Shown here piece after piece: positions 93 to 9,079 of a DNA stretch of 14,354 nt. This DNA is from an uncultured candidate division Zixibacteria bacterium (GTDB lineage: Bacteria > Zixibacteria > MSB-5A5 > GN15 > FEB-12), in the NCBI GenBank assembly GCA_913009765.1, contig CAJVYT010000062.1:1-14354 (forward strand), read 5' to 3'. The notes below the pieces were generated by a model. The model searched no databases. It was given only the letters and a program-made list of their open reading frames with translations, and was not told the DNA's origin. The stretch's first letter is position 1. Each line of letters opens with the position of its first letter. A program made the translations under genes and the position numbers.

Positions 93-158
93 CAAGCAGA
101 AGACGGCATACGAGATATATCAGTGTGACTGGAGTTCAGACGTGTGCTCTTCCGATCT
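93..158 (+). other. Illumina TruSeq P7 index adapter contamination
   Basis: Positions 93-116 match the Illumina P7 flow-cell sequence (CAAGCAGAAGACGGCATACG followed by AGAT). Positions 125-158 match the TruSeq index-read primer, starting GTGACTGGAGTTCAGACG and ending GCTCTTCCGATCT. The eight bases between, ATATCAGT, reverse-complement to ACTGATAT, which I recall as TruSeq index 25. This is library adapter left in the assembly. Genomic sequence begins at about 159. Confidence 0.98.
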
Positions 159-160
159 TA

Positions 161-268
161 CTGCTCATAGATAAAAACGGTATAATTCAGTTTATTGATT
201 CTCTCGATTTCAATCTATTACCTGATAATGAAAAATTATTTAAAGCACTTGCGAATTTGTCAATTTAA
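161..268 (+). CDS. C-terminal fragment of a probable redoxin (AhpC/TSA or thioredoxin-like)
   Basis: An open frame enters from the adapter junction and runs 35 codons to TAA (266-268). It reads LLIDKNGIIQFIDS, followed by a helical tail with the order DNEKLFKALANL. An 'IDKxGxI' strand followed by an 'E.LLKAL..L' helix is the usual C-terminus of AhpC/TSA and thioredoxin-fold proteins. The 5' part, including the active site, is lost to the contig end. The next gene, 46 nt downstream, is a peroxiredoxin, so two redox genes may lie in tandem. The family call rests on a short segment and is tentative; the reading frame is more certain than the name. Confidence 0.5.
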   Translation: MLIDKNGIIQFIDSLDFNLLPDNEKLFKALANLSI

Positions 269-314: not shown

Positions 315-749
315 ATGATTAAAATAGGTATTAAAGCTCCTGCGTTTAAGCTAAACTCTTCAGATGGAAAAATGTTTTCATCAGAGGATATAAAAGGTCG
401 TTTTGCCGTTGCCGTATTTTACCCTAAAAACAACACCCCCGGCTGAAACCGACAGCTTGCTGCTCTGGAAGAGTGCCGGACTAAATTTGAAAAGTTAGAT
501 ACTGTTGTCTTTGGAATTAATCCTGCCTCGGTAACATCTCATCAAAATTACTGTTCTAAAAAAGGATTTAATTTTCCTATTTTATCAGACCCCGCAGAAA
601 AAGTTACTTCAAAATTTAAGTGTCAAAAACCGACGGGTAAAGGGGTTTTGAGAACTGTATATGCAATGAACCGTGAGGGTAAAATTATCTATGCAGAACG
701 GGGTATGGGTGATTTTGGAGATATTCTTGATATTATCAAAACACAATAA
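315..749 (+). CDS. bcp: Selenocysteine peroxiredoxin Q (Bcp family), TGA read as Sec
   Basis: This is a thiol-type peroxidase of the PrxQ/Bcp family, expected to reduce peroxides in the cytoplasm using a thioredoxin-like donor. The frame spans 144 codons with one internal TGA (444-446, residue 44). Both sides align with the family: an N-terminal IGIKAPAF strand, VAVFYPKNNTPG, the TGA, NRQLAALEE, then SHQNYCSKKGFNFPILSD and RTVYAMNREGKI. The TGA falls exactly at the peroxidatic position of TPGC, giving TPGU; Thr41 and Arg113, the usual active-site partners, are present. Cys80 is 36 residues on, the spacing of the resolving cysteine in the alpha-3 class of PrxQ; the +5 cysteine of E. coli Bcp is absent. 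AAGGA at 303-307 supports the ATG. Length is close to the family norm (about 150-155). A SECIS-like hairpin follows the TGA. Decoding needs selABCD elsewhere in the genome, which is not visible here. A nonsense mutation is the alternative. Confidence 0.85.
447..479 (+). promoter_or_regulatory. Candidate bacterial SECIS hairpin for UGA recoding
   Basis: Directly after the TGA, 461-466 pairs with 470-475 (UGCUCU with AGAGUG: four Watson-Crick pairs plus two G-U wobbles) around the apical loop GGA (467-469). CCG (449-451) can pair with CGG (477-479) as a lower stem. The loop starts 20 nt after the TGA and opens with G. Both fit the published bacterial SECIS model, as I recall it: a loop 16-37 nt from the UGA and a G among its first two bases. 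The element lies inside the coding region, as in other bacterial selenoprotein genes. A small competing hairpin (CAGC/GCTG, 453-462) exists, so a fold prediction would help. Confidence 0.6.
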
Positions 750-925: not shown

Positions 926-2614
926 ATGACTACTGAAAATGAAAATAATTCAAAAACAGAAACTAAAGATTTTATCCGCACTATAATCGATCAACATAAT
1001 AAAAGCGGTCGCTTTAATAAAATTGTGCATACTAGATTCCCTCCTGAACCAAACGGCTATCTGCATATTGGTCATGCAAAAGCTATCTGTATTTCATTTG
1101 GTATTGCCGAAGAATACGGCGGTGTGACAAATCTTCGTTTTGATGATACCAATCCAACCAAAGAAGAAACCAAGTACGCCGAAGCTATTATGCGTGATAT
1201 TAAATGGCTTGGTTTTGACTGGGGGGACAGACTCTTTCACGCATCTGATTATTTCGACCAACTCTATGATTGGGCAGTGCTGCTTATTAAAAAAAGTGTT
1301 GCATTTGTTGATGACCTTTCAGCAGAGGAAATGCGTGAGTATCGCGGTACTCTTACAGAAGCCGGCAAAGAATCGCCGTATCGAAACCGTTCAATTGAGG
1401 AAAATCTTGACCTGTTTGATAAAATGAAAAATGGGGATTTCCCTGACGGTGCCAAAACCCTTCGGGCAAAAATTGATATGGCATCAGGAAATATGAATAT
1501 GCGTGACCCGGTTATGTACCGAATTATGCGGGCAACGCATCATCGTACCGGCGACAAGTGGTGTATCTACCCGACCTATGACTGGGCTCATGGACAGTCT
1601 GATTCTATTGAGAAAATTACTCACTCGTTGTGTGACTTATCGTTTGAAGATCACCGTCCCCTTTATGATTGGTTTTTAGACCGGCTTGAAGTGCATCACC
1701 CTCAACAGGCAGAGTTCGCCCGCTTGAATATAAATTATACTATTACCAGTAAACGGAAACTTCGGCAGCTTGTTGAAGAAAATATTGTCGATGGATGGGA
1801 TGACCCTCGTATGCCGACACTTTCCGGGCTGCGTCGGCGGGGCTACACTCCAACAGCAGTACGAACATTTATAAACAAATTAGGTATATCTAAAAAAAGA
1901 GATACGGTTGCCGATATAGCTCTTTTAGAACATGGGTTGCGGGATGAGTTAAACAAATCATCTAAAAGACTAATGGCAGTTATCAAACCATTAAAAGTTG
2001 TCATTACAAATTATCCTGACGGTAAAATTGAAGAGTTTGATGCTGTGAATAATCCTGAAGATGATTCTGCCGGTTCAAGAAAAGTATATTTCTCTAAAGA
2101 AATATATATAGAACAGACTGATTTTGTCGAGGTTGCCCCTAATAGAAAATATTTTAGACTTGCCCTTGGTAAAGAAGTCAGGTTAAAACATACTTATTAT
2201 ATCACTTGCGATGAAGCTATAAAAGATGATGACGGTAATATTGTAGAACTTCGCTGTACCTATGACCCTGAATCAAGAGGGGGATCATCGCCTGACGGTA
2301 GAAAAGTGCGTGGAACTTTGCACTGGGTTTCGACACATGATGCTGTTGATGCTGAGGTGCGTTTGTATAATCATCTTTTTACAAAAGAAACACCGGATGA
2401 AGATGATAACTTTATTGAAAATATAAATCCTGAATCGTTAGAAATTATGACTGAGTGTAAAGTTGAGCCTTCTTTAAAAAAACTCAAAACGGGTGAAAAT
2501 TGTCAGTTTCTTCGGCATGGATATTTTTGTTTAGATTCTAAATACTCAACAAATGGGGAACTTGTCTTTAATCGTTCTGTTACATTAAAAGACAGTTGGA
2601 CAAAGAAAAAGTAA
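926..2614 (+). CDS. glnS: Glutaminyl-tRNA synthetase
   Basis: A cytoplasmic class I aminoacyl-tRNA synthetase that charges tRNA-Gln with glutamine. The N-terminal Rossmann domain carries the class I signature [14 protein letters not shown], with HIGH at residues 47-50. The KMSKS-type loop appears as ITSKRKL around residues 273-279, close to the VMSKRKL form of other GlnRS proteins. Also typical are LRFDDTNP near residue 70 and the block [17 protein letters not shown] that follows the KMSKS loop. The beta-barrel anticodon-binding half follows to residue 562, so the protein is full length (E. coli about 554). AAGG at 914-917 supports the ATG. A bacterial GlnRS means this lineage can charge tRNA-Gln directly. 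It is the first gene of a packed group with the ferredoxin reductase and nadA; its leader contains an inverted repeat pair. Confidence 0.97.
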
Positions 2615-2622
2615 ATGTTATT

Positions 2623-3690
2623 ATGAGTATTATTATACCTGATAAAAATATATATGATGTAACTTTTATAGGTGCCGGACCTGTTGCTCTCTATGGAATG
2701 TACTATGCCGGACTCAGACGTACAAAATCAAAAGTAATTGATATGCTTGGTGAAGTAGGCGGCGGATTGATGGCTCTCTATCCCGAAAAGTATATTTATG
2801 ATGTTGCCGGATTCCCTAAAATCTTAGCAAAAGATTTAGTAAAAGGACTCAAAGAACAGGCTGTTCAATACGACCATGAAATATGCCTTGAAGAAAAAGT
2901 GCTTGGTGTAGAAAAAAAATCGGACGGGTTAATTAAACTGACTACTTCAAAAGGTGAACATTTATCTAAAACTGTGGTTGTCTGTGCAGGCATGGGAGCG
3001 TATATCCCCAAAAGACTGGATATACCAAATGTAAAAGAACTTGAAGGTGCCGGAGTTTATTATTTTATCAGACGTCTTAAGGATTTTGCGAAAAAAAATA
3101 TATTAGTGGTTGGCGGTGGTGATTCTGCATTTGACTACTCTATGATGCTTGAACCAATTGCTGAGTCTATTACACATATACACCGTAACGATTTTTTTGC
3201 CGCTCATGAAGCGTCAGTTGAAAAAGTTATGCAGTCCTCAGTCAGAATGAAATTCCCATTTTGGGAAATTAAGCAGATTGAGGGAGATGACTGGGTTCGC
3301 CATGTTACCCTTGTGCAGACCCAAACGGGTGAAACCGAGCGTATGGATGTTGATGCTATTATATTTAATATCGGTTTTTTGACTAATATGGGTCCAATTC
3401 AGGAATGGGGGCTTGAAATTGATAAAAATTCTATTGCAGTTGACTCTCGGATGCGTACTAATATAGACGGGGTTTTTGCTGCCGGTGATGTTGTTACGTA
3501 TGACGGCAAATTAAAATTGATTTCAACAGGATGTGGTGAAGTTGCTGTTGCGGTTAATAATGCTAAAAACTATATTGACCCAAAAGCAAAGGTTAGCCCC
3601 GGACATTCAACCGATAAACATGTGATGACTCTCCGAAAGATTTCTCGTGAGAAGAAAAAAGCTCAAATGGAAAATAAGGAAGAATCTTAA
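2623..3690 (+). CDS. Ferredoxin--NADP+ reductase, thioredoxin-reductase-like (YumC type)
   Basis: A flavoenzyme that moves electrons between NADPH and ferredoxin or flavodoxin. The FAD-binding motif is FIGAGPVALYG (residues 15-25), followed by the family block LYPEKYIYDVAGFPK and KDLVKGLKEQ. A second dinucleotide motif, VVGGGDSAFDY, begins near residue 162, and a C-terminal GVFAAGDVVTYDGKLKLI segment closes the FAD site. There is no CxxC redox pair, which separates it from thioredoxin reductase, and the 355-residue length fits YumC-type enzymes. I chose ATG 2623, eight bases after the glnS stop, because the residues from there fit the family N-terminus. An in-frame TTG at 2596 would overlap glnS and add nine unlikely residues. 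nadA starts two bases after this gene, so co-transcription is likely. Confidence 0.93.
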   Translation: MSIIIPDKNIYDVTFIGAGPVALYGMYYAGLRRTKSKVIDMLGEVGGGLMALYPEKYIYDVAGFPKILAKDLVKGLKEQAVQYDHEICLEEKVLGVEKKSDGLIKLTTSKGEHLSKTVVVCAGMGAYIPKRLDIPNVKELEGAGVYYFIRRLKDFAKKNILVVGGGDSAFDYSMMLEPIAESITHIHRNDFFAAHEASVEKVMQSSVRMKFPFWEIKQIEGDDWVRHVTLVQTQTGETERMDVDAIIFNIGFLTNMGPIQEWGLEIDKNSIAVDSRMRTNIDGVFAAGDVVTYDGKLKLISTGCGEVAVAVNNAKNYIDPKAKVSPGHSTDKHVMTLRKISREKKKAQMENKEES

Positions 3691-8193: not shown

Positions 8194-8571
8194 ATGACCT
8201 TATCAAAACAAACCAAAGCCAACCGAGAGAACGCCAAACAATCAATCGGACCTACAACCGAACATAGAATCGACTATGATCTCCTAATTGAAGATCTTCG
8301 TTCCGAACTCAATCCACAATCTTTTTTCCAAGAATACCTTATCAAAAAAATTGCCAACTGTCTCTGGCGTACTCAGCGTGCCGCCTTCGCCGAAACCGCC
8401 CACATCAATGGACAACTTAACAACCTCGATGAAAAAATTGAAAGAGAACTACGCTGCCATTCCTATAAAAAGAAAAAAATAACGCTATTTCAAAAAACGA
8501 ACCCATTTTGCTGTAACTCAAACATATTTATGACTTTACGGCGAAAAAGTTGTTTTAATAAATGTGGATAA
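8194..8571 (+). CDS. Small repetitive-family protein, internally shortened; function unknown
   Basis: I do not recognise a function. The N-terminus, KANRENAKQSIGPTTEH, and the segment LIEDLRSELNPQ...LIKKIANCLWRTQRAAFAETA resemble a family of about 200-residue proteins that occur in many copies in some environmental genomes, of the form NRxNAQKSTGPxTxEGKA...NALKHGL...LLxxLRAEL...LVExIAxxxWRLRRA. Here GPTTEH joins almost directly to the LRSEL part, so the middle block with NAxKHGL is missing without loss of frame. The C-terminal third (after about residue 90) is Lys- and Cys-rich and includes KTNPF; it may be decayed sequence. It has no signal peptide or membrane segment. RBS AAGAGGA (8181-8187) precedes the ATG. 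It sits alone in a repeat island. It may be a pseudogene or a degenerate repeat-associated ORF. Confidence 0.45.
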   Translation: MTLSKQTKANRENAKQSIGPTTEHRIDYDLLIEDLRSELNPQSFFQEYLIKKIANCLWRTQRAAFAETAHINGQLNNLDEKIERELRCHSYKKKKITLFQKTNPFCCNSNIFMTLRRKSCFNKCG

Positions 8572-8675: not shown

Positions 8676-8742
8676 AGGTCGAAACCCCTGCGGTTCCGAC
8701 ATTATACTGGACTCCGTGTCAAGCACGGAGAGGAGTTCAGAA
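8676..8742 (+). repeat. 67-bp direct repeat, copy A
   Basis: It is 62 of 67 bases identical to copy B at 8942-9008. It contains two hairpins: GTCGAAACC with GGTTCCGAC (one mismatch), and CTCCGTG with CACGGAG around TCAAG. An outer pairing CTGGACT/AGTTCAG encloses the second. A decayed relative of the second hairpin follows at about 8748-8772 (CCGCA-TCAAG-TACGG). Confidence 0.85.
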
Positions 8743-8868
8743 GATTTGATTCCGCATCAAGTACGGCATGATATTGGGGGAAGTTTGGATGAGATAGGAA
8801 CGAGTTGTGAATGTCAATGTGTGTGTTGGAATGACATTTTTGGAAATATGTTTTTATAATTGTCATTT

Positions 8869-8887
8869 CCCCTCTTTTTAAGAGGGG
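8869..8887. repeat. Hairpin CCCCTCTT-TTT-AAGAGGGG
   Basis: A perfect 8-bp stem; a degenerate copy is at 7805-7819. Downstream on the plus strand comes TCGGGGGTG and then a T-rich run (8896-8908). The 9-base gap between stem and T-run makes it a poor match to an intrinsic terminator, though some activity on the plus strand is conceivable. Confidence 0.65.
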
Positions 8888-8941
8888 TCGGGGGTGTTTT
8901 TGTTTTTTATTCAGCACTCGACAAATATCGCATAGCATAGC

Positions 8942-9008
8942 AGGTCGAAACCCCTGTGGTTCCGACATTCTTCTGGACTCCGTGACAAGCACGGAGAGGA
9001 GTTCAAAA
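8942..9008 (+). repeat. 67-bp direct repeat, copy B
   Basis: It is the second copy of the repeat at 8676-8742, 266 bases downstream in the same orientation. The five differences are one in the first hairpin's loop region, two in the linker between the hairpins, one in the TCAAG/ACAAG loop and one near the end, so both stems are untouched. Confidence 0.85.
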
Positions 9009-9079
9009 TATTCGGTAAAGAGGATATGAGATGCTGCCATTAAGGTGGGATCACAGGGCTTCTGACCTGCGATAATTAG

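Follow-up and report, generated by a model that had tools for sequence, protein, structure and literature searches.

The gene at positions 315 to 749 of the window, which is the whole 14,354-nucleotide stretch of DNA analysed here from an uncultured candidate division Zixibacteria bacterium, is predicted to encode a PrxQ/BCP-type peroxiredoxin (Prx) with selenocysteine (Sec) as its peroxidatic residue, a reading to which we assign a probability of about 0.95. It is based on sequence evidence: the reading frame, a UGA that is conserved, selection on the sequence beyond it, the active-site residues, a hairpin signal among orthologs, and the Sec machinery of relatives. From these we infer Sec insertion itself and, as discussed below, both the U44-C80 bond and the identity of reductant and substrate. 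The features of the region are as follows.

93..158, forward strand: Illumina P7, 8-base index and read-2 adapter (exact match), an assembly artefact located at the end of the contig
161..268, forward strand: 3' end of an upstream AhpC/Prx1-like peroxiredoxin, the tandem partner, truncated by the adapter
315..749, forward strand: predicted Sec-containing PrxQ/BCP-type peroxiredoxin gene, 144 codons plus TAA (from frame, Pfam, orthologs, and tree)
444..446, forward strand: UGA putatively read as selenocysteine (U44), the peroxidatic residue of PxxxTxxU (P37, T41, U44)
459..476, forward strand: SECIS-like hairpin, GC-(bulged U)-GCUCU, loop GGA at 467-469, AGAGU-GC, with a UGA-loop spacing of 20 nt
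552..554, forward strand: codon of Cys80, which lies 36 residues past U44, aligns with C84 of Xanthomonas campestris PrxQ, and is a candidate resolving cysteine

Reading frame and conservation of the UGA

The frame runs from ATG to TAA on the forward strand, and its sole internal stop is the TGA at codon 44 (PKNNTPG[TGA]NRQLAALEE), which bears out the first-pass annotation's description of a 144-codon PrxQ/Bcp frame broken just by TGA at 444-446. A search of the translated frame against peroxiredoxin families, which that annotation had called for, matched Pfam AhpC-TSA over residues 4-126 of the read-through frame (E 5.9e-29), and Redoxin also matched across almost the entire frame. The flanks had been called family-like: this holds for the AhpC-TSA match on both sides of the TGA and fails in detail, as the residue after U44 is Asn (TPGUN) instead of the usual Thr and the Cys five residues on is absent. 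The Cys of homologs aligns with the TGA, as had been claimed for the family, and an in-frame UGA aligned with a Cys of homologs is one of the marks by which a bacterial selenoprotein is recognised.

The protein also combines the AhpC/TSA fold with the catalytic P, T, C/U, and R of PrxQ/BCP proteins. The top NCBIfam model for the read-through protein is thioredoxin-dependent thiol peroxidase (PRK09437, NF006960), with a score of 67.3 bits that lies below the equivalog cut-off of 140 bits; we therefore class the protein as PrxQ/BCP-like by its fold, active site, and spacing, and not as that equivalog. An Rfam scan of the window gave no family at gathering scores and just two sub-threshold snoRNA matches inside the gene.

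Scanning a named genome collection with exact peptide patterns identified two loci, both in metagenome-assembled genomes titled Candidatus Zixiibacteriota and 76% (L001) and 75% (L002) identical to the window protein, with TGA at the same codon. In Candidatus Zixiibacteriota, the phylum of these closest relatives, 122 of the 132 genomes searched in six frames gave matches. The best 15 (118 to 238 bits, 42-76% identity) have one stop each, a TGA at the position of codon 44. In the next-best match (G071, L034/L094; 95 bits) an in-frame deletion removes the whole active-site segment, which is either a real loss or an assembly error. Viral contigs yielded no relative; 18 phage records have a match, with identities of 22-38%.

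By codon comparisons, the region past the TGA is under purifying selection. There, dN and dS between the window and its relatives are 0.144 and 1.97 (G002), 0.145 and 2.36 (G001), 0.214 and 2.63 (G060), and 0.245 and 1.73 (G059), the dS values of 1.73-2.63 being close to saturation. Single-stop frames are the usual appearance of a pseudogene or a sequencing error, and an assembly artefact, the Illumina adapter, is present in the window at 93-158. However, this artefact is confined to the first ~158 bases and the peroxiredoxin gene is outside it; the TGA is common to the 15 best orthologs, which come from different genomes, and beyond it dN falls far short of dS. The stop is thus neither a sequencing error nor the sign of a pseudogene, and we give a nonsense mutation almost no weight.

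If the TGA were reassigned, for example to Trp (code 4 or 25), it would be an ordinary codon, and four database proteins of the clade described below (P0002-P0005) indeed have Trp at this position. The contigs behind these forms are short (725-1279 bp), though, and their Trp is probably a TGA that a gene caller translated as Trp. Trp would abolish the peroxidatic residue, where the clade member P0006 has Cys, and of the 12 other genes that were checked in the window, those for NadA, SufS, and Rieske end with TGA, in keeping with the first-pass count of at least three true TGA stops; reassignment is highly improbable. Termination at the TGA, with a separate downstream protein of 80-98 aa made from an internal start, would agree with the form in which 12 of the 24 database proteins are written (P0007-P0010, P0012, P0015, P0017-P0021, and P0023), as fragments of that length beginning past the TGA. 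But the downstream part lacks the active-site loop, start positions vary among the fragments, and the frame upstream of the TGA is conserved as well (dN 0.15-0.39, dS 0.95-1.81), which makes true termination very unlikely. Such fragments are a usual annotation artefact of selenoproteins (PMC1088965), and the prediction that gene callers would split the gene proved correct. One fragment (P0010) is labelled Calditrichaeota by its source, and names vary between sources.

Selenocysteine machinery and the SECIS-like hairpin

The machinery for Sec insertion was counted in the genomes of relatives. Among the 15 gene-bearing genomes, SelA is above cut-off in all, SelB in 14 (the exception is G061), and tRNA-Sec above the Rfam cut-off in 14 (the exception is G019); ARAGORN reports a tRNA-SeC with anticodon tca in both closest relatives. 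Across the 132 genomes of the phylum, 106 have tRNA-Sec, 113 SelB, and 116 SelA, and because the machinery is thus near-universal its co-occurrence with the gene is consistent with Sec and non-discriminating. In 14 control genomes, SelA is above cut-off in one, SelB in two, and tRNA-Sec in five, so that the tRNA-Sec model alone is unspecific. The selA match of a close relative (G002:C64:9741-11075) contains one in-frame TGA.

A model of bacterial SECIS elements specifies an apical loop of 3-9 nt, a stem of 4-16 bp, a G within the first two loop bases, a UGA spacing of 16-37 nt, and a minimum free energy of at most -7.5 kcal/mol (PMC13188914). The window hairpin fits this model with a GGA loop, a stem of 5-7 bp, and a 20-nt spacing. 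A 63-nt fold that includes it reaches -8.9 kcal/mol, but by itself it is weak: the best strict form has -2.7 kcal/mol, and the form with the bulged U (459-476) has -4.2. Against a null in which codons were redrawn synonymously from each gene, the window hairpin alone is not significant (the fixed stem gives P 0.073 and the best hairpin P 0.185). Other foldings favour different structures (438-500, z -0.99; 444-488, z -0.71), and over the 16 orthologs, the window included, the mean codon-null z of the fold is just -1.07.

The orthologs together carry a clearer signal. In the +20 helix, which was picked after the sequences had been seen and is compared among rows related by descent, 77 of 112 cells are paired against 62.4 (sd 3.2) in the codon null, and contiguous stems add up to 67, compared with 35.9 (sd 4.3), with none of 2000 redraws as high in either case. 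The covariation score of this helix is 0.306 against 0.197 in shuffled alignments (2/500), and slid versions score at most 0.192; its four both-side pair changes are not unusual (93/500 shuffles). Eight of the 16 form a helix with at least six contiguous pairs (window, G002, G001, G060, G059, G052, G055, and G042), most of these relatives with a stronger hairpin than the window's copy, and the other eight do not form the +20 helix. Of the 16, 15 have an uninterrupted hairpin that qualifies at -2 kcal/mol or below, compared with 30% of 1440 control positions, and 10 have one at -5 kcal/mol or below, compared with 10.6% of control positions. Synonymous conservation, scanned in up to 101 overlapping 12-codon stretches, is maximal in the stretch from codon 42, both among the five closest orthologs and among all 16.

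Five genomes (G028, G027, G030, G029, and G019; L022 and L025-L028) have an alternative hairpin 37 nt after the UGA that replaces the one at +20. Its loop is GGUUC in three of them, and its stem sum over the five is 27 against 5.7 (sd 3.3) in the codon null (0/2000). Covariation over all 16 rows lends this hairpin no support (score 0.069, against slid versions of up to 0.189). The SECIS hairpin is apparently shifted in these five genomes. A 5-bp hairpin in shifted register (-7.2 kcal/mol) is present in G061, and G065 and G067 have neither the +20 nor the +37 element as a strong hairpin.

Active site, proposed cycle, and known relatives

The structure of the read-through protein was predicted with confidence (pLDDT 96.1, pTM 0.90); the top-ranked PDB matches of the model are BCP/PrxQ proteins, and AhpE structures are also among the closest. 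In a 22-row alignment, where U was written as C in the 16 Sec rows, T41 and R113 are invariant and P37 nearly so. Together with residue 44, these form the peroxiredoxin catalytic set. In the classic BCP type, the resolving Cys lies five residues past the peroxidatic one, in helix 2; the window protein has Ala49 there. Cys80 is conserved in eight of the 16 Sec orthologs, and the remainder have Ala (six), Ser (one), or Val (one). In six of the eight orthologs without Cys80, the stretch that was translated contains no further Cys (the exceptions are G052 and G042).

Among the known proteins nearest to the window enzyme is PrxQ of X. campestris (PDB 5iiz, 5ima, and 5iph), which shares its fold (TMq 0.86-0.87) and has Cys84, presumably its resolving Cys, aligned with Cys80 and likewise 36 residues past the peroxidatic residue. 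It differs in having Cys48 where the window protein has Sec, and identity is ~29%; entry 5iph is titled a C84S mutant. Given that the +5 Cys is absent and Cys80 occupies the position of Cys84, we propose that the window enzyme likely runs a U44-C80 selenenylsulfide cycle. SelB bound to the hairpin just 3' of the UGA would bring Sec-tRNA(Sec) to codon 44. The U44 selenolate, positioned by P37, T41, and R113, would attack H2O2 or an organic hydroperoxide and be oxidised to selenenic acid, with which Cys80 of helix 3 would form a selenenylsulfide that thioredoxin or a similar dithiol could reduce. Orthologs that lack Cys80 would presumably follow a one-Sec cycle, with an external thiol resolving the selenenic acid. 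AhpE of Mycobacterium tuberculosis (1xxu, titled 1-Cys peroxiredoxin) may serve as a model for these orthologs: its fold is similar (TMq 0.92), but it is a Cys peroxidase with 24% identity.

Sec peroxiredoxins are an established family, found here also in a group of uncultured relatives. Those of COG1225 (Bcp), with the motif TxxU, are tabulated in PMC9312934, the Sargasso Sea set holds 43 Sec Prx genes (PMC1088965), an early-genome table lists 12 (PMC1794560), and the motif has been given as PxxxTxxU (PMC13188914). The window protein resembles them in being of COG1225 type with Sec at the peroxidatic position of PxxxTxxU, but differs in its TPGUN motif and in the missing +5 resolving Cys. Another Sec peroxiredoxin, that of Eubacterium acidaminophilum, was reportedly described by Sohling et al. 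2001, and we take NCBIfam PrxU (NF040737) to represent it. The catalytic Sec in a peroxiredoxin is common to both, but with 30.7 bits against the PrxU cut-off of 270 the window protein does not belong to that equivalog.

Searching the literature for Zixibacteria or Zixiibacteriota with selenocysteine or seleno found, among the text that the search covers, no selenoprotein paper for the phylum; the sole match for Zixibacteria with selenocysteine lists a Zixibacteria bin and does not contain the word peroxiredoxin. Judged by titles and abstract openings, the matches for PrxQ with selenocysteine include nothing on such a Sec PrxQ.

The predicted selenocysteine clade and its gene neighbourhood

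A tree of 39 proteins combines the 16 Sec rows with 12 of the 24 database proteins and with 11 of the weaker, Cys-type matches at the 14 loci L035-L048. It leaves out the 12 fragment proteins, as well as L036, L044, and L047, which had been dropped beforehand. A clade of 21 (support 98/96) unites the 16 Sec rows with the four Trp forms and the Cys form P0006; the 18 proteins outside it are ordinary Cys ones, among them the Cys PrxQ paralogs of Zixiibacteriota itself. P0006 is nested within the Sec clade (96/49, the second value being weak), a placement that suggests a change from Sec to Cys. The first-pass proposal that Sec stands in for the catalytic Cys hence draws support from this nested ortholog, from the TGA of 15 orthologs and the purifying selection past it, from the relatives' machinery, and from the ortholog hairpin signal.

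An AhpC/Prx1-like peroxiredoxin precedes the gene, directly or with an intervening GlnS, in all 16 regions compared (those of the 15 gene-bearing genomes and G071). In the window its 3' end is preserved at 161-268, with 73% identity (33 aa) to the upstream peroxiredoxin of G002 and 81% (31 aa) to that of G001. This tandem partner has the motif TPVC or TLVC in G001, G002, and G061, and TPVU in G065 and G067, which would thus carry two adjacent Sec peroxiredoxins. The TPVU paralog is found in nine more genomes outside the 15. Overall, 11 of the 13 genomes examined have a Prx1/AhpC-like protein with TPVU, the in-frame TGA falling at the peroxidatic position (L090, L091, L095-L098, L100, L101, and L103-L105); in G081 and G080 (L099 and L102) the six-frame search shows one TGA and the TPVU motif scan found no match. 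By its motif, the TPVU protein is a predicted second Sec peroxiredoxin of the phylum.

The genes downstream, of which the subset varies, encode an FNR-like flavoprotein (10 of the 16 regions), NadA, E2, LipB, and an SDR protein. A thioredoxin reductase-like flavoprotein is encoded at 2596-3690 of the window and adjoins the Sec peroxiredoxin in several relatives. The idea that the FNR-like flavoprotein is a thioredoxin reductase working directly with the peroxiredoxin was considered and dropped, given a TIGR01292 score of 160.3 against a cut-off of 343.45 and no CxxC by eye; the product of 2596-3690, in which no CxxC is visible, is probably a ferredoxin-NADP reductase. Two open reading frames between the SDR gene and the SUF cluster, at 8194-8571 (forward strand) and 8702-9040 (reverse strand), have no Pfam match.

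We tentatively put forward, at rather less than even odds, a wider picture of a near-wholly Sec clade in which the tandem peroxiredoxin is sometimes a Sec protein (TPVU), half of the members lack Cys80 (six of them one-Sec), and the SECIS element moved from +20 to +37 in five genomes. If true, this would be a worked example of SECIS relocation within an orthologous coding sequence, and the clade would suit the study of SECIS repositioning under protein-coding constraint. Because gene callers split the gene at the TGA, records of this antioxidant enzyme from an uncultured phylum show a fragment of 80-98 residues or, probably, a protein with an active-site Trp. With members that have Sec and Cys80, Sec without Cys80, and a Cys form, the clade would offer a natural series on the benefit of Sec to peroxiredoxins.
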